From Rhizobacter sp. (GTDB taxonomy: Bacteria; Pseudomonadota; Gammaproteobacteria; Burkholderiales; Burkholderiaceae_C), in NCBI GenBank assembly GCA_021732645.1, contig JAKFUQ010000073.1:1-33348 (forward strand): a DNA stretch of 33,348 bases, written 5' to 3'. Positions within the stretch are counted from its first letter, which is position 1. Every line of letters begins with the position of its first letter. Positions 1,258-33,348 of the stretch are shown one piece after another. The notes beneath the pieces are model-generated. The model had not been told where the DNA came from, did no database searches, and saw nothing but the letters and a program-made list of their open reading frames with translations. Both the position numbers and the translations under genes were made by a program.

Positions 1258-3423
1258 TCAGCGGCTCATGCCACTGGCCGGCACGCTGCGCAGGTCCTGT
1301 GCAAGGCGCCCTTCATGGAGCACGATCACGCGGCTGGCGGTGGCAATGGTCTCCGGCCGGTGCGCGACGATCACCCGCGTCAGGTCGAGTTGCCGCACCG
1401 CTTGGTTGACCAGCCGCTCGCGGTCGACATCGAGCGCACTGGTCGCCTCGTCCAAAAACAGGATGCGCGGGCGCTTGTACAGCGCACGGGCCAGCAGGAT
1501 GCGCTGCTTCTGGCCGCCCGACACGCTGGTGCCCATGTCGCCGATGAGCGTGTGAAAGCCCATCGGCATCGCCTCGATTTCCTCGTGAACGGCGGCCAGT
1601 CGGGCACATTCCTCGACCCACGCGGTGTCGGGCGCCGCGTCGAAGAAACTGATGTTGTCGATGATCGAACCCGCAAACAGCTGGTCGTCTTGCATCACAG
1701 CGCCGATCATGTCGCGCCACGCACGCGCGCCGAGCCGCGCCAGAGGCAGGCCACCGACACGCACCTCACCGGCCTGCGCCTCCAGCGTACCCAGCATCAG
1801 TTTCAACAGCGTCGTCTTGCCGCAGCCCGAGGGGCCCGCGATGGCCACCGACTCGCCCGGCTCGATGGTCAAGCTCAGTCCATCGATGACCCAGGGCTCG
1901 CCATCCGAATACCGAAAGCGGATGCCGCTGAGCTGGATCTGTGCCCCGACCTTGGCGACATCGACCGGGGCGGCCTCATCGGCTTCGGGCGCGGTCAGCA
2001 CGATGTCGGCCAGCCGCTCACCCTGCAGCTTGAGCATGCGCAGCTCGACCAGCTTGTCGATCAAGCCACTGACGCGCAACGCGAACTGTTCCTTGTAGGC
2101 GAAAAACGCGAACAGCATGCCGACCGAGAAGCTGCGGTCCAGCACCAACAGCGCGCCGACCCAGATCACCGCCACGCGCTCCAGACCGAACACCAGTTTG
2201 TGCGACACCGACAAGGTCAGGTCGAGCTTGCGCATCACGATGTGGGCGTTCAGCGCATCGACCGCGCGGTTCATGTACTGGCCCTGCCGCTGCTCTTGTC
2301 GGTTGAACAGCTTGATAGCCTGCACACCGCGTAGCGATTCAAGGAAGTGAGTGTCCGCTTTCGCGTCGTGAACGATGGATTCTTCAGTTGCATCACGAAG
2401 GGGGCGAAAAAACGCCCAGCGCAGCAGTGCGTAGGCGGTCACACCCGCCAGCGCAATCAGGGTCAACTTGACGCTGTAGAACGCCATCATGGCAAAGGTC
2501 AGTACCACCAGCAGGCCATCGAGCACCACCTCGATGAAGCTGGTGGTCAGCGTTTGCTGAATTTTCTCGACAGCGGCGAAGCGCGACATCACATCGCCGG
2601 TGTGGCGCTTCTCGAACCACGCCACCGGCAGCCGCATCAGGTGTGCAAACACGTTCGACAGCCACTGCAGGTTCAGCGTCGCCGACAGGTACAGCACCGC
2701 CCACGAGCGGATCGCGCCAGTGGCCACCTGCACCAGCACCAGCAAGGTGAAGCCCAACCCGAGGGTGACCAGCAGGTCGCGGTCGGCGCTGACCAGCACG
2801 CTGTCGACCACCCACTGCATGAAAAACGGCGACAGCAGCATGAACACTTCGAGCGCCAGCGCCAGCACCAGGATCTGCAACAGAGAGCGCTTCAGGCCAC
2901 TGACCTGCCCGAGCAGCTGCCGTACCGTCACCGACTGCCGCTCCACGCGTGGCTGAAACTCGGGGGTCGGTGTCAGCTCCAGCACCACGCCCGTGAAGTG
3001 GTTGGACACCTCGGCCATCGACAGCCGTCGAACGCCACGCGCGGGGTCGTGCAGCACCGCCTTGCCACCGCGCAGCGCGACCAGCACGACAAAGTGGTTC
3101 AAGTCCCAGTGCAGCACGCAGGGCAGCTGCAACTGCGGCAGGTGTTCGAGTTCGGCACGCAGCGCGCGCGGCGTCAGTTGCAGCTGGCCGGCGATGCGCG
3201 TCAAGTCCATCATCGTCGCGCCCTTGAGCGACAACGAGAAGCGCTTGCGCAAGGTCGGCAGGTCCGTCTTCAGCCCGTGGTGCGTGGCCACCATGGCCAA
3301 ACACGCCAGACCGCATTCGGCCTCCTCGGTCTGCAGCAACATCGGGACGCGCGAGGGGCCCAGGCCCACGCGCAGGGCCGACAAGGCGGCGGCACCCAGT
3401 CCCGGCTCGTCCGCGCGCTTCAC
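1258..3423 (-). CDS. Peptidase C39 domain ABC transporter (ATP-binding/permease; bacteriocin/double-glycine peptide exporter, CvaB/RaxB-like)
   Basis: N-terminal C39 motif LLQTEEAECGLACLAMVATHHG (Cys), HWDLNHFVVLVAL (His), LHDPARG (Asp); ABC motifs GPSGCGKTT, SVSGGQKQR, LFLDEATSALD. GTG at 3423 overlaps the TGA of the upstream gene (GTGA); the ORF track extends the start to 3462. Confidence 0.92.
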   Translation of the reverse strand: MKRADEPGLGAAALSALRVGLGPSRVPMLLQTEEAECGLACLAMVATHHGLKTDLPTLRKRFSLSLKGATMMDLTRIAGQLQLTPRALRAELEHLPQLQLPCVLHWDLNHFVVLVALRGGKAVLHDPARGVRRLSMAEVSNHFTGVVLELTPTPEFQPRVERQSVTVRQLLGQVSGLKRSLLQILVLALALEVFMLLSPFFMQWVVDSVLVSADRDLLVTLGLGFTLLVLVQVATGAIRSWAVLYLSATLNLQWLSNVFAHLMRLPVAWFEKRHTGDVMSRFAAVEKIQQTLTTSFIEVVLDGLLVVLTFAMMAFYSVKLTLIALAGVTAYALLRWAFFRPLRDATEESIVHDAKADTHFLESLRGVQAIKLFNRQEQRQGQYMNRAVDALNAHIVMRKLDLTLSVSHKLVFGLERVAVIWVGALLVLDRSFSVGMLFAFFAYKEQFALRVSGLIDKLVELRMLKLQGERLADIVLTAPEADEAAPVDVAKVGAQIQLSGIRFRYSDGEPWVIDGLSLTIEPGESVAIAGPSGCGKTTLLKLMLGTLEAQAGEVRVGGLPLARLGARAWRDMIGAVMQDDQLFAGSIIDNISFFDAAPDTAWVEECARLAAVHEEIEAMPMGFHTLIGDMGTSVSGGQKQRILLARALYKRPRILFLDEATSALDVDRERLVNQAVRQLDLTRVIVAHRPETIATASRVIVLHEGRLAQDLRSVPASGMSR

Positions 3424-4706
3424 AGCCGCCCCGTCACGCTCAACAGGGGCTCGAAGATCCACTCGATGAGCCGACGGCGGTCGAGCAGCACATCGGCCTC
3501 GAGTTGCATGCCTGCGACCAAGGGCTGCGCGACACCGTAGGCCTGCACCGTTTGCGCATCGAGTGCCACGGTGATGCGGTACAGCGGCTCCGTGACACGC
3601 GCGTCATCGTCTGCATGGGCGCCGACGACCGTACCCGCCGACAACGGCAGGTTGGCCAGTTCAGCCGCCTGCAACGGCGTGCGCGACACCTGCAGCACCT
3701 GCCCCGGGTGATGGCCGAACTTCTGGTACGGAAACGCCTGGTAGCGCAACTGCACCTTCTGCTCAGGTCGCAGAAAGCCGACCGCGCTGGAGGGGGCAAA
3801 CAACTGAGCCTGCATCTTCGCGCCCTCGGGCAAGAGGCTGGCCAGCGCAGCCGACGGGGTGACGCTGTCACCAGGCGCCGCGAGCACGGCAGTGACCACG
3901 CCTGATCGGGGCGCTCGAACGACGATGCGCTGCAAAGCGCCGCTCTCGGCCGAGGCCTGCGTCAGCTCGGCAAGGCTGCGCTCAATGCCGCCTCGCTGCG
4001 ATTGCGCCTGCGAGGTGCGCTCGCTTCGCTGCGCTTCAAGCACGCCGATTTCACGCTGCTGCGCGAGGCGTTGGCGCACCAGCGCTTGCGCCTGCGCGCG
4101 CAGGCCGAGGATTTCTTCCGCCTTTGTCTGTACGTGGGCGCCGGAGACGAAGTTGTCGGCCTGCAGGGACTGGAGTTGGGCCCAGGCTTTTTGTGCCAGC
4201 GCCAGGCGCTCCTGCTGGAGCTCGCCCTCTGCATCCATTTGCTTGAGTTCGCGGCGCATGTCAGCGATCTGTCGCGACAAGGCGGCGAGCTGCTCGGCTT
4301 CGAGCCGCTCGCTCTGTCGGCTTGCCTCGTTGAGGCTGCGCGCGCGCACGTCAATGCTGTCTTGCACCGCGGACTGCGCGTCACCCGACGCTGTCGACCG
4401 GTCTGTCGAGATGACGAACAGAATGTCGCCGGAGCGAACCGCGTCGCCCTCAGTCACGCGCCGCTCAACGACCGTGCCAGCCTGCGGCGTCGGCAGACGC
4501 AGCACACCCTGATCAGGCAACAAGACACCCACCACATGGGCTTTGCGGGTGTATTCGCCTTGAAACAGGAACCATCCCGTGGCCAGAGCGGTGATGGCCA
4601 CCAGTCCCGTCAAGACCGAAAAAGAAACTGGCCGGACCAGTTGAATCCGGCCCAGCCAAGTGTTTTTGTGGTGTTCCAGCGCCTCAATGCGAAACAGATC
4701 GCTCAT
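3420..4706 (-). CDS. HlyD family secretion periplasmic adaptor subunit (CvaA/RaxA-like)
   Basis: MSDLFRIEALEHHKNTWLGRIQLVRPVSFSVLTGL..., coiled-coil centre, RAPRSGVVTAVLAAPGDSV lipoyl/barrel motif; located directly upstream of the C39 ABC transporter. The ORF track uses a TTG start at 4739; ATG at 4706 fits family N-termini better. Confidence 0.9.
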   Translation of the reverse strand: MSDLFRIEALEHHKNTWLGRIQLVRPVSFSVLTGLVAITALATGWFLFQGEYTRKAHVVGVLLPDQGVLRLPTPQAGTVVERRVTEGDAVRSGDILFVISTDRSTASGDAQSAVQDSIDVRARSLNEASRQSERLEAEQLAALSRQIADMRRELKQMDAEGELQQERLALAQKAWAQLQSLQADNFVSGAHVQTKAEEILGLRAQAQALVRQRLAQQREIGVLEAQRSERTSQAQSQRGGIERSLAELTQASAESGALQRIVVRAPRSGVVTAVLAAPGDSVTPSAALASLLPEGAKMQAQLFAPSSAVGFLRPEQKVQLRYQAFPYQKFGHHPGQVLQVSRTPLQAAELANLPLSAGTVVGAHADDDARVTEPLYRITVALDAQTVQAYGVAQPLVAGMQLEADVLLDRRRLIEWIFEPLLSVTGRL

Positions 4707-4768: not shown

Positions 4769-4933
4769 TCACCACCGGCGGCCTGGGGCCCCGCCGCTGA
4801 CTTCACGCAATTCGTCTGATTTCAGCTCACGTGGGCCATTGGCCGACTCACGACGCGTCTTGACTTGGGTATCGACGGTCTTGGCGACAGGGGTTTGGCG
4901 AGACACCGGCGCGTTGAAGGGCAATTTCCGCAT
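4769..4933 (-). CDS. 54-aa double-glycine-leader peptide with a 6-aa predicted core (APGRRW)
   Basis: MRKLPFNAPVSRQTPVAKTVDTQVKTRRESANGPRELKSDELREVSGG|APGRRW. AGGAG Shine-Dalgarno 7 nt upstream of ATG 4933; leader residues L-12, E-8, L-7, V-4, G-2, G-1 match the GG-leader consensus; adjacent to HlyD and C39 transporter genes. Confidence 0.75.
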   Translation of the reverse strand: MRKLPFNAPVSRQTPVAKTVDTQVKTRRESANGPRELKSDELREVSGGAPGRRW

Positions 4934-4960
4934 TTGAAACTCCTGAGAGGGATGGGTCGC

Positions 4961-4977: not shown

Positions 4978-5071
4978 AACGACATTCCAGCAGCTCCCCG
5001 GCCATTTCATAACTGTCAACTCTTACAGCTTGTGCTCAGCCCAAGAGCCGACTACGAATTCACGTTGTCTC

Positions 5072-5785
5072 TCAAAAAATCAGTTTCAGCCGCAGCGCCT
5101 TCAGCACGGCCTGGTGCTTGTTGACGCATTCGAGCTTGTGCGTGGCGTTGGTCAGGTGAAGCACGGCGGTGCGCTCGCTGATGCCCAGGATGTTGCCGAC
5201 CTCCCAGGCGGTCTTGCCCTCCATGGTCCAGCGCAGGCTCTCCAGTTCGCGCGGTGTCAGAGACACCGTGCTGGCATCGGGAACGGTCGGCAACAGCACG
5301 CGGGAGGCCGCATCCTGGGCCAGCACCGCAAACAGCTGCAGGTCGGCGACCATGCGGGTGAGCTCCTGCGGCGCATGGGGCAGCGGGCGATCGCGGTCCA
5401 CGCCGAGCACAAAGTGTCGCCCTTCCGGCAGGTGCAGCGCCAGGCAGATGCCCGTGCGGTAGCCGTAGCGGGCCTGCGCCTCCCACATCTCCGATTGGCC
5501 GGCCGAGATGTAGGTGGTCTGGTCCCAGATGATGGGCACGCTCTTGCGCTTGCAGTGCTGCATCACCGGGTCATTCATGCATTTCGCGCCTTCTTCGAGC
5601 GCCGCACTGAAGGCCGGTGGTGCGTTGTCGATGGCGATGAATTCGGGGTCGCCCAGGAAGTGGTCTATGACGGTGATGGCCGACACGGTATCGAACCCCA
5701 GGCCACGGGCGAAGCCGACGATTTCAGAGTGAAGATCGTCCCGGCTTTGCGCCTCGAACACCGATGAAAAGCCACCCTGAAGCAT
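5072..5785 (-). CDS. LuxR family transcriptional regulator with autoinducer-binding domain (LuxR solo; no luxI in window)
   Basis: N-terminal autoinducer-domain pattern (NDPVMQHCKRKSVPIIW, YGYRTGICLALHLP) and C-terminal HTH SLTPRELESLRWTMEGKTAWEVGNILGISERTAVLHLTNATHKLECVNKHQAV. Confidence 0.92.
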   Translation of the reverse strand: MLQGGFSSVFEAQSRDDLHSEIVGFARGLGFDTVSAITVIDHFLGDPEFIAIDNAPPAFSAALEEGAKCMNDPVMQHCKRKSVPIIWDQTTYISAGQSEMWEAQARYGYRTGICLALHLPEGRHFVLGVDRDRPLPHAPQELTRMVADLQLFAVLAQDAASRVLLPTVPDASTVSLTPRELESLRWTMEGKTAWEVGNILGISERTAVLHLTNATHKLECVNKHQAVLKALRLKLIF

Positions 5786-5835: not shown

Positions 5836-5857
5836 CACCTGCAAACATTGACAGGTG
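5836..5857. promoter_or_regulatory. lux-box-like inverted repeat upstream of luxR
   Basis: cACCTGcaaacattgaCAGGTg: ACCTG-N10-CAGGT, 20 bp, same arms and spacing as the classical lux box; 51 bp upstream of the luxR start codon. Confidence 0.6.
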
Positions 5858-5989
5858 GCAAGCTCGACAAACCCGCAGACACTGATGTCAGAGGCAGTTT
5901 GGTGACTGCCCGGTGAAAGGCGGAAACCCATGACTCCCCCGTGGACAGTGCGTGCATGGCCCCCTCTATTGTGGCAGGCGGACTCTACG

Positions 5990-6304
5990 ATGGATTTGTG
6001 TCTGACACACATGCACACCCGTGTCGTCCATTCCGGTTTGTCCGACTCGCCCTGCTGTGGACAGACCTTGTGGGCACGCACCAGCGATGAAACGACCGCC
6101 GGTGTGGCCTGGGATTGGGTGCAACTGCACCAAGGCGTGGTCGCGATGGCCGACCCGATGGGCCTGGTGACCAACCTGATGCTGCTGGACGCCCATGGCG
6201 AACCGATTCCCACGCTGCAAGCGACGCTGCACCTGAACGAGATCGTGCACGCGCTGCCCTGGCAGACCGAGGTCGAACGCGCGCTGGCGCGGCTGGCCGC
6301 CTGA
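5990..6304 (+). CDS. Hypothetical protein
   Basis: Open frame ending ...VVAMADPMGLVTNLMLLDAHGEPIPTLQATLHLNEIVHALPWQTEVERALARLAA with protein-like composition; fills the gap between divergent/convergent genes. Start uncertain (5930, 5990 or 6011). Confidence 0.55.
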   Translation: MDLCLTHMHTRVVHSGLSDSPCCGQTLWARTSDETTAGVAWDWVQLHQGVVAMADPMGLVTNLMLLDAHGEPIPTLQATLHLNEIVHALPWQTEVERALARLAA

Positions 6305-28523: not shown

Positions 28524-31353
<2,830 letters not shown>

Positions 31354-31393
31354 TTAGAGGGCCCGCGGGCCCGGGTGTGCTTCAAAACAGAAC

Positions 31394-31412
31394 CCCCCCG
31401 CTCGGCGGGGGG
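31394..31412 (-). terminator. GC-rich hairpin in the dnaN-gyrB gap, terminator-like
   Basis: CCCCCCGC-CGA-GCGGGGGG stem followed on the minus strand by GTTCTGTTTTG. Confidence 0.5.
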
Positions 31413-31437
31413 CAGGGGGGAGCCCAGCAACCGCGCA

Positions 31438-31470
31438 GCGGATATGAACCGCCACGCGGTTCATATCCGC
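31438..31470. repeat. Perfect 15-bp inverted repeat spanning the dnaN stop codon
   Basis: GCGGATATGAACCGC-CAC-GCGGTTCATATCCGC. Confidence 0.9.
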
Positions 31471-32579
31471 ATGGGCATGACCACGTACTTGAAGCCCGCC
31501 TGCTCGGGCACCGTGATCAGCACGCTGGAATTGGTGTCTTGCAATTCCAGCTTGATCATCTCGGCGCTGATGTTGGCCAGCGCGTCCATCAGGTAGGTGA
31601 CGTTGAAGCCGATCTCGATGCTGTCGCCCGCATAGTCGATCTCGATTTCTTCCTTGGCCTCTTCCTGTTCGGCATTGCTCGACGCGATGCGCAAGGTGCC
31701 GGGTTCGATGTTGACGCGCACCCCCTTGAACTTCTCGCTGGTCAAAATCGCCGCGCGTTGCAGGCTGGACAACAACGCCACGCGCCCCAAGGTGATGTGG
31801 TTTTTGTGATTCTTCGGGATCACCCGGTTGTAGTCGGGGAACTTGCCTTCGACCAGCTTGGTGACGAACTCCATGCCGCTGAAGCTGAACTTCGCCTGGT
31901 TGCCAGCAAAGCGCAACTCGATGGTGCTGTCCTGGTTGCCCTTGTCGTCTTTGAGCAAACGCTGCAACTCGAGCACCGTTTTGCGCGGCAGGATCACCTC
32001 CTGTTTGGGTATCTCGCTCTCCAGCGTGGCATGGGCCAGTGCCAGACGATGCCCATCGGTGGCCACCAAGGTCAGCGTCTTGCCTTCAGCGACAAACAAG
32101 ATGCCGTTCAGGTAGTAGCGGATGTCGTGCACCGCCATCGCAAAGTGCACCTGGTTGATCAGGTTCTTCAGTGTCGCCTGGGGCACCTTGAACACCGGGC
32201 CGAAGTCGGCCGCTTCCTGCACCAACGGGAAGTCATCGCTGGGCATGGTCTGCAAGGTGAACCGGCTCTTGCCCCCTTGCAAGGTCAGCTTGTTCTGGTT
32301 GGCGCTCAGGGTGACGGTCTGGTCGACGGGCAAGGCGCGCAAGATGTCGATCAGTTTGCGGGTGCCCACGGTGGTTGCGAAGCTGGCCGCATCGCCATCA
32401 AAGGTGTCGCGGGTTCGCACCTGGATCTCGAGGTCCGAAGTGGTGAATTCGATGTCGCCAGCGTTCTTGCGCAGCAACACGTTGGCAAGGATAGGCAAGG
32501 TGTGTCGCCGCTCGACGATGCCCGACACCGACTGAAGCGCACCCAGCAATTTTTCTTGCGTCGTCTTCAAGACAATCAT
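31461..32579 (-). CDS. dnaN: DNA polymerase III subunit beta (sliding clamp)
   Basis: MIVLKTTQEKLLGALQSVSGIVERRHTLPILANVLLRKNAGDIEFTTSDLEIQVRT ... SVLITVPEQAGFKYVVMPMRI. Confidence 0.98.
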   Translation of the reverse strand: MIVLKTTQEKLLGALQSVSGIVERRHTLPILANVLLRKNAGDIEFTTSDLEIQVRTRDTFDGDAASFATTVGTRKLIDILRALPVDQTVTLSANQNKLTLQGGKSRFTLQTMPSDDFPLVQEAADFGPVFKVPQATLKNLINQVHFAMAVHDIRYYLNGILFVAEGKTLTLVATDGHRLALAHATLESEIPKQEVILPRKTVLELQRLLKDDKGNQDSTIELRFAGNQAKFSFSGMEFVTKLVEGKFPDYNRVIPKNHKNHITLGRVALLSSLQRAAILTSEKFKGVRVNIEPGTLRIASSNAEQEEAKEEIEIDYAGDSIEIGFNVTYLMDALANISAEMIKLELQDTNSSVLITVPEQAGFKYVVMPMRI

Positions 32580-32741
32580 GTGAACCTCTCAGATTAGCCG
32601 TAGTAGTAGGGGCCCCGAGGCCCTGTGTACAACCCTATTTTCTGCCTTTAGATCAACACTTTAGAGGTGGATCAACCCTGTGTACCCATGCCCGCGATGC
32701 GCGGGACTCAGGTGCAACAACTTGTCCGCTGCGGCGAACGA

Positions 32742-32750
32742 TGTGGATAA
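32742..32750 (-). promoter_or_regulatory. Perfect DnaA box between dnaA and dnaN
   Basis: TGTGGATAA (reverse complement TTATCCACA). Confidence 0.8.
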
Positions 32751-32817
32751 CGCTCGCTTGTTCGAAAGTTGTCCCCAGTGTTGTGCGTTGACAGGGATCA
32801 AAAGGCAGTCGCAAAAC

Positions 32818-33348
32818 TCAGCCTTTGAGTGTTTGTTCCAGCACATGCAGTTGCTGGTTCAGCTCGGGGTTCTTTTGCCGTTCGGCCGAGATCTTGCGCA
32901 CGGCATGCAGCACGGTCGTGTGGTCACGGCCACCGAACAGCTCGCCGATCTCGGGCAGGCTTTTCTGCGTCATTTCCTTGGCCAGGTACATCGCTATCTG
33001 GCGTGGCCGCGCGATGCTGGCGGGCCGCTTCTTCGAGTACATGTCGGCGACCTTGATCTTGTAGAAGTCGGCCACGGTCTTTTGTATGTTCTCGACGCCG
33101 ACCTGCCGATTTTGGATCGACAACAAGTCTTTCAGCGCGTCGCGGGCCAGGGCGATGCTGATGTCCTTCAGGCTGAAGCGCGAATAGGCCAATATCTTGC
33201 GCAGCGCGCCTTCGAGCTCGCGCACATTGGCGCGCACGTTCTTGGCCACGAAGAAGGCCACGTCCTCGGGCATGGTCGCGCCTTCGGCCTCGGCTTTTTT
33301 CATCAGGATCGCCACCCGCATTTCCAGCTCGGGCGGCTCGATGGCGAC
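32818..33348 (-). CDS. dnaA: Chromosomal replication initiator protein DnaA, partial (5' end outside window)
   Basis: Frame runs to the window edge: [52 protein letters not shown] ... [40 protein letters not shown]. Confidence 0.98.

Follow-up and report, generated by a model that had tools for sequence, protein, structure and literature searches.

The window analysed here, a 33,348-nucleotide stretch of DNA from Rhizobacter sp., probably carries a peptide cell–cell signalling circuit in which an autoregulated hexapeptide signal is sensed by the LuxR-type protein encoded beside it. In the mechanism that we propose (features in Table 1), a 54-residue precursor would be cut after its Gly-Gly motif and carried out of the cell by a C39 ABC transporter and the HlyD adaptor, giving the hexapeptide APGRRW; this peptide, or the C-terminal hexapeptide of the longer cores seen in relatives, would then enter the pocket of the adjacent LuxR protein, which holds an acyl-homoserine lactone (AHL) in related receptors, and there the residue preceding the C-terminal Trp would rest against LuxR residue 69. 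The LuxR protein would bind a lux box and control peptide and exporter from a promoter of class II type, and an RsaM-like protein would be the likely brake. Uptake, physical binding and activation (i.e. positive feedback) rather than repression are inferred. The original prediction for the peptide gene had not linked it to the luxR gene; we consider that link to be the important one.

Table 1. Positions of the proposed signalling module's features in the window.
Feature	Position	Strand	Remarks
C39 peptidase-ABC exporter	1258..3423	-	catalytic Cys37, His110, Asp126
HlyD-type adaptor of the peptide exporter	3420..4706	-	domain searches
Peptide precursor gene	4769..4933	-	54 aa, stop TGA 4769-4771
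Six-residue core APGRRW, proposed xPxxxW signal unit	4772..4789	-	purifying selection and motif counts
Double-glycine leader	4790..4933	-	48 aa, ending ...PRELKSDELREVSGG
Shine-Dalgarno AGGAG of the peptide gene	4940..4944	-	6 nt before ATG
Extended -10 element CTGCTGGAAT	4984..4993	-	fixed distance from lux box
lux box CTGTAAGAGTTGACAG upstream of the peptide gene	5013..5028	-	present in 96/96 loci
luxR-type regulator, proposed receptor	5072..5785	-	Autoind_bind and GerE
Codon of LuxR residue 69 (Cys)	5579..5581	-	covaries with the peptide residue before Trp
Second lux-box-like site, luxR/rsaM-like divergent intergenic region	5839..5854		7 or 8 of 8 core bases
RsaM-like (DUF4902) gene	5930..6304	+	divergent from luxR

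The precursor gene, read from 4933 to 4769, translates as MRKLPFNAPVSRQTPVAKTVDTQVKTRRESANGPRELKSDELREVSGG, a leader ending in ...RELKSDELREVSGG, followed by the six residues APGRRW and a stop. The features on which the original prediction rested are borne out by the sequence: Leu at -12, Glu at -8, Leu at -7, Val at -4 and Gly at -2 and -1 (i.e. the hydrophobic residues at -12, -7 and -4 and the Gly-Gly/Ala of a double-glycine leader), a good Shine-Dalgarno sequence, and a frame that closes six residues past the glycines. Searches of Pfam and NCBIfam with the precursor gave no family match, and a comparison with PHROG gave a single, insignificant one. The open reading frame is real, well beyond chance: together with its leader motif and core, it is found again at the corresponding site ahead of hlyD in some 100 loci. 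The C39 domain of the window's exporter is clear (PF03412, E=6e-34), and its catalytic Cys, His and Asp are invariant in 68 of 68 loci; cleavage of the precursor after the Gly-Gly and export by the C39 system are predicted.

How widespread is this arrangement? Relatives of the HlyD protein were sought among named GTDB genomes and 300 genomes from the window's taxonomic family, and the survey of small frames near C39/HlyD pairs that had been suggested for this gene yielded about 100 loci with a GG-leader frame between luxR and hlyD, most of the fetched loci having the order rsaM-like < > luxR - peptide - hlyD - C39 ABC exporter. Named GTDB carriers of the five-gene order belong to Rhizobacter, Methylibium, Piscinibacter, Ideonella, Rubrivivax, Roseateles, Mitsuaria and Pelomonas, and metagenome-assembled genomes such as Burkholderiales bacterium PBB1 carry it as well. 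The module's LuxR protein occurs in 87 of 400 sampled genomes of the taxonomic family (34 of 141 genera). APGRRW belongs to a large, previously unrecognised family of Trp-ended short peptides in freshwater and soil Burkholderiales, which appear to be signals that the cells make for the adjacent LuxR receptor. An order-level search outside the taxonomic family found one divergent LuxR only, with neither peptide nor box behind it, and HlyD matches in a plasmid collection were all below 42% identity. By Pfam, the module's neighbours are the exporter, the RsaM-like protein, a GNAT protein and an ABC-2 export protein. Additionally, a minus-strand mnmG/gidA can be read at positions 1-1221 of the window, and most relatives likewise have mnmG next to the module; since the right end of the window (28807-33348) holds gyrB, dnaN and dnaA, the module lies near the replication origin.

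The cores in these loci span 6 to 47 residues (47 by repeats), and lengths of 6 to 8 are common; the longer ones contain an extra linker or two to five copies of the hexapeptide. There are 44 different hexapeptides, of which APGRRW is shared by the window and the three relatives nearest to it; elsewhere there are, for example, APKSTW, GPNGGW, LPKATW, SPVKGW, APRPMW and GPRGGW. Among 71 distinct loci, Pro stands at -4 in 69, -3 is mostly Lys, Arg, Asn or Val and -1 mostly Gly or Thr; the terminal Trp is present in all 71, having been the selection criterion of that set. The RRW ending flagged as distinctive by the original prediction thus falls within a conserved C-terminal xPxxxW hexapeptide. 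An exactly repeated unit is present in 21 of 74 distinct cores, with up to five copies (GPNGGW), and exact repetition is also seen where the motif deviates (LPRIGGL...LPRIGGL). The few precursors that lack Trp carry LPRVS, LPRIGGL or LPRVGGL; these Trp-less units mark a sub-group (L065/L120, L124, L127 and L309) and are repeated identically in two of its members. In three other loci (L279, L285 and L292), four SPKGTW copies follow a very short leader, and the lux box is weaker (7/8).

Which part of the precursor is constrained? Across 82 distinct leaders, the consensus is L-12, L-7, V-4, G-2 and G/A-1. Over the six core codons, the four nearest loci differ pairwise by one to three synonymous and no non-synonymous changes, and the L095/L096 pair differs by eight synonymous and no non-synonymous changes over nine core codons; unlike the core, the N-terminal part of the leader gathers replacements in the four nearest loci. 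The comparison of leader and core that had been proposed therefore comes out in favour of the core, which is under purifying selection, and a frame free of such selection, named beforehand as grounds for abandoning the gene, is excluded. The other such ground, longer cores in orthologues pointing to a frameshift here, holds in form only: many cores are indeed longer, but these end in or repeat the same hexapeptide. Because they do so, the window's core is one minimal unit and not a truncation, and the short conserved cores together with the selection on them rule out a frameshifted or truncated bacteriocin.

One genus (g13; loci L278, L284, L290, L296 and L304) lacks hlyD, C39 and leader altogether at the locus. 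Instead, luxR and a perfect lux box are directly followed by a minigene of 10 to 31 codons that ends in the hexapeptide, with the products MIATTTRQANTTTELPRAGW, MKPSHALDASSLSPKGGWSPKGGWWAPKGGW, MQASRHATATIRRNPKGGW, MQVLLPRNAW and MQAVKTVSTRPVQLPRAGW. Where checked, this locus has mnmG next to it, an arrangement shared with the window and with most relatives, and the genus has lost leader and exporter. Since it keeps luxR, lux box and hexapeptide, these three form the constant heart of the system, with leader and exporter as dispensable additions. The idea of a leader-like decoy, which the original prediction had entertained, finds no support here: no part of the precursor is more constrained than these six residues, and they are kept even without leader and exporter. 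Its preference for a signal peptide over a pore-forming bacteriocin, by contrast, is strongly supported by the conserved C-terminal hexapeptide, the repeats, the LuxR-type promoter and the covariation with the LuxR pocket described below.

The regulator beside the peptide gene is a LuxR protein by domain content (Autoind_bind, E=2.6e-23; GerE, E=3e-14), and the solved structures that its predicted fold (pLDDT 85) most resembles are QscR, RhlR and SdiA. If the peptide touches this protein, site-specific covariation is expected, and covariation was therefore what we tested. With all other parts of the module controlled, distance in the LuxR ligand domain is associated with hexapeptide distance (partial Mantel r=0.22, p=0.001); HlyD retains a weak association (r=0.115), and the DNA-binding domain, C39 domain, transporter and ATPase show no positive association in these tests. 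Column by column, covariation is strongest in LuxR 52-77, a segment lining the AHL pocket of related receptors. As the segment (51-76) had first been noticed from the top columns, it was re-tested by a scan of windows over four proteins, in which LuxR 52-77 ranked first of 1,216. Second came residues 19-44 of the RsaM-like protein, a protein that might therefore also make contact with the peptide, alone or in complex with LuxR.

The covariation centres on LuxR residue 69, which, anchored on the DP motif, aligns with LasR Ala70, a pocket residue that a review names among those detecting 3-oxo-C12-HSL (PMC9654057). In the 68-locus discovery set, residue 69 is Gly if and only if the peptide residue at -1 is Thr, Ser, Val or Asn. 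Mapped on a HlyD and ABC transporter tree, residue 69 and peptide -1 change 11 times each, together; they switch jointly in 11 of 11 phylogenetically independent pairs, and the next best of 2,603 column dichotomies in LuxR, HlyD, ABC and RsaM-like proteins reaches 6 of 11. In 33 loci outside the discovery set, size complementarity holds with rho=-0.79. Over 101 loci, Gly never occupies both positions (about 17 expected), and a bulky residue 69 (Trp, Met, Tyr, His, Gln, Phe or Arg) is paired with peptide Gly in 35 of 35 cases; L118 (LPSSWPKPTN, Asn69), having no canonical unit, was excluded from the count. For example, L081 combines APKSGW with Arg69, and its sisters combine APKSTW or APKNTW with Gly69; a Phe or Tyr before Trp likewise accompanies Gly69 (L311 and L298). 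The strict rule that Thr, Ser, Val or Asn goes with Gly69 is broken in five loci (L033, L060, L210, L280 and L282), each with a small residue at 69 (Ala, Ser or Asn) and three of them in genomes where luxR is present in several copies or the locus is rearranged. Residue -1 of the peptide is thus size-complementary to LuxR residue 69, and genetics of such high specificity point to contact between peptide and pocket.

Contact leaves the direction of the response to be considered, and the promoter speaks to it. A CTGT-N8-ACAG palindrome lies between luxR and the peptide gene in all 96 loci, 84 times perfect and 12 times with one mismatch, where shuffled sequences give 0.3% and 3.6%, respectively. 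It stands 66-83 nt from the start codon across loci (79 nt upstream of the peptide gene in the window). Anchored on the box, an extended -10 element, CTGcTNNAAT, is conserved over 82 distinct promoters, and this fixed spacing places the centre of the lux box near -43, the position of a class II activator. In 90 of 96 loci, the intergenic region shared by luxR and the rsaM-like gene has a second box, with 7 or 8 of the 8 core bases. The window's RsaM-like protein scores 24.2 bits against PF16245 (cut-off 25), 13 of 16 relatives match that family at E<0.01, and its best solved match is BCAM1869 (4o2h, E=0.027), which we take to be BcRsaM. The main alternative that retains the peptide-LuxR contact is that the peptide binds LuxR as an inhibitor inside the cell, its export, or the absence of export, serving as a timer or as a self/non-self check. 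The genetics settle contact and not sign, RsaM-like proteins repress LuxR systems, and the exporter-less genus would operate within one cell, all of which would suit an inhibitor; a lux box near -43, as in activator-dependent promoters, would however turn the inhibitor into a self-repressing loop, and we judge this version unlikely.

A perfect lux box of the same type also lies upstream of an HlyB-type type I secretion operon (L209:5907-5922, also L208, L220 and L223), in 3 of 11 copies from module-bearing genomes versus 0 of 12 from module-less ones, and the site is degraded in the module-less congeners G276 and G202. This operon is a possible regulon member, a suggestive observation that we do not use as evidence.

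LuxR receptors are the textbook sensors of AHLs, known for signals derived from lipids and not for peptides encoded by genes. Many LuxR solos have no known ligand; LuxR solos sense AHLs, photopyrones, dialkylresorcinols and plant compounds. Could the protein be an ordinary, eavesdropping AHL receptor, with the hexapeptide only its regulated output, such as a small antimicrobial or effector peptide? The operon is under lux box control, the window's LuxR retains Asp72, Pro73 and Trp87 of AHL receptors, and LuxI (PF00765) is absent from 40 of 45 module genomes, the window's own included (present in five), so that AHLs would have to come from outside; by the same count a LuxI partner is ruled out, and the protein is a LuxR solo, with Autoind_bind and GerE domains and no LuxI in its locus or genome. 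Against this, an output peptide should not follow the LuxR pocket residue by residue, and neither a bacteriocin-like core nor an immunity gene is seen. Additionally, the invariant AHL-contact set (W57, Y61, D70, P71 and W85 in TraR numbering) is incomplete in the window's protein, where the positions of TraR Trp57 and Tyr61, which vary among loci, hold Phe59 and Leu63. We regard an AHL receptor as quite improbable. For the peptide ligand that we favour, the main physical doubt is size: the hexapeptide is about 740 Da, to our knowledge all AHLs are smaller, and LuxR pockets are usually closed, so that what LuxR binds may be the C-terminal part or a shorter fragment. No peptide importer was identified for the module. 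A few loci (L210 in G097, L060 in G067, L034 in G212 and L287 in G197) carry LuxR copies of the same subfamily in tandem, three to five per locus and differing at residue 69, possibly receptors for the hexapeptides of other species.

Shared ancestry, or the swapping of luxR-peptide cassettes between lineages, is very unlikely to have produced the covariation as a side effect. The two genes are adjacent and could travel together, and Mantel tests are sensitive to relatedness; simple cassette transfer would, however, move all LuxR columns, and only residue 69 switches (11 of 11, against at most 6 for any other column), with the loci outside the discovery set, leaderless genus included, in agreement. 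As for a class II bacteriocin or microcin relative with a degenerate core, the GG leader, C39 ABC transporter and HlyD are the usual bacteriocin export set, and in more distant HlyD relatives (about 41% identity, without this luxR) such GG peptides as could be located have long, Gly-rich cores of bacteriocin type, but the chance of this is negligible: the core is six residues rather than tens and is the most constrained part of the precursor (which refutes the degenerate version), Pfam finds no immunity family among the neighbouring genes, the module's LuxR is spread over 34 genera, units are repeated within cores, and leaderless versions exist.

If the signalling circuit is correct, one large group of LuxR solos makes its own ligand, a gene-encoded hexapeptide that can be read from the genome, and a testable ligand is at hand for each species at once. 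The loci would amount to a natural key-lock series of more than 40 hexapeptides with matching residues 69, and would offer gene-encodable orthogonal signals for synthetic biology. The reading of small GG-leader frames, and of unannotated genes of 10-50 codons downstream of luxR, would change as well. A search of the open-access literature turned up no description of a LuxR protein whose ligand is a self-encoded peptide, and this LuxR group is not described in the parts consulted of three LuxR-solo surveys (PMC4357305, PMC4338825 and PMC10134790).

How does the module compare with known systems? With ComC, BlpC, class II bacteriocins, microcin V and RaxX it shares L-12, L-7, V-4, the Gly-Gly and an adjacent C39-ABC/HlyD pair; unlike in those systems, the core is 6-12 residues or hexapeptide repeats, and the regulator is a LuxR protein with an AHL-type domain rather than a histidine kinase. 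In the RRNPP systems (Phr, PapR, NprX and SHP/ComS) and the arbitrium hexapeptides, a short C-terminal peptide of a small precursor acts on a transcription-controlling receptor encoded next door, and peptide and receptor diversify rapidly as key and lock. The module shares the small-precursor peptide, the adjacent sensor gene and the key-lock diversity, and differs in that the regulator beside the peptide is of LuxR type and not a TPR protein, in its GG leader and C39 ABC export, and in its Gram-negative host. With the AHL systems (RhlR, QscR, LasR, SdiA and TraR) of LuxI/LuxR type it has in common the LuxR fold and domains, the lux box, an autoregulated signal gene, an RsaM-like neighbour and covariation of receptor and signal maker at the pocket (compare PMC8328516); unlike in these, there is no AHL synthase, and the signal gene itself encodes the peptide. 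The PAB/OryR-type solos, among them PipR of Pseudomonas sp. GM79, are similar in being LuxR proteins without LuxI and with altered AHL-contact residues. PipR is activated by the tripeptide Ser-His-Ser, only at about 1 mM and with the need for a peptide importer, and has been proposed to sense a peptide-like plant signal (PMC4981722). PipR has importer and peptidase genes for neighbours and responds to plant material; the neighbouring proline iminopeptidase and peptide importer of the PAB/OryR/PipR group are absent among the module's neighbours, and here, unlike for PipR, the peptide is encoded beside its proposed receptor, with whose pocket it covaries, and is predicted to leave the cell through a C39 ABC system.
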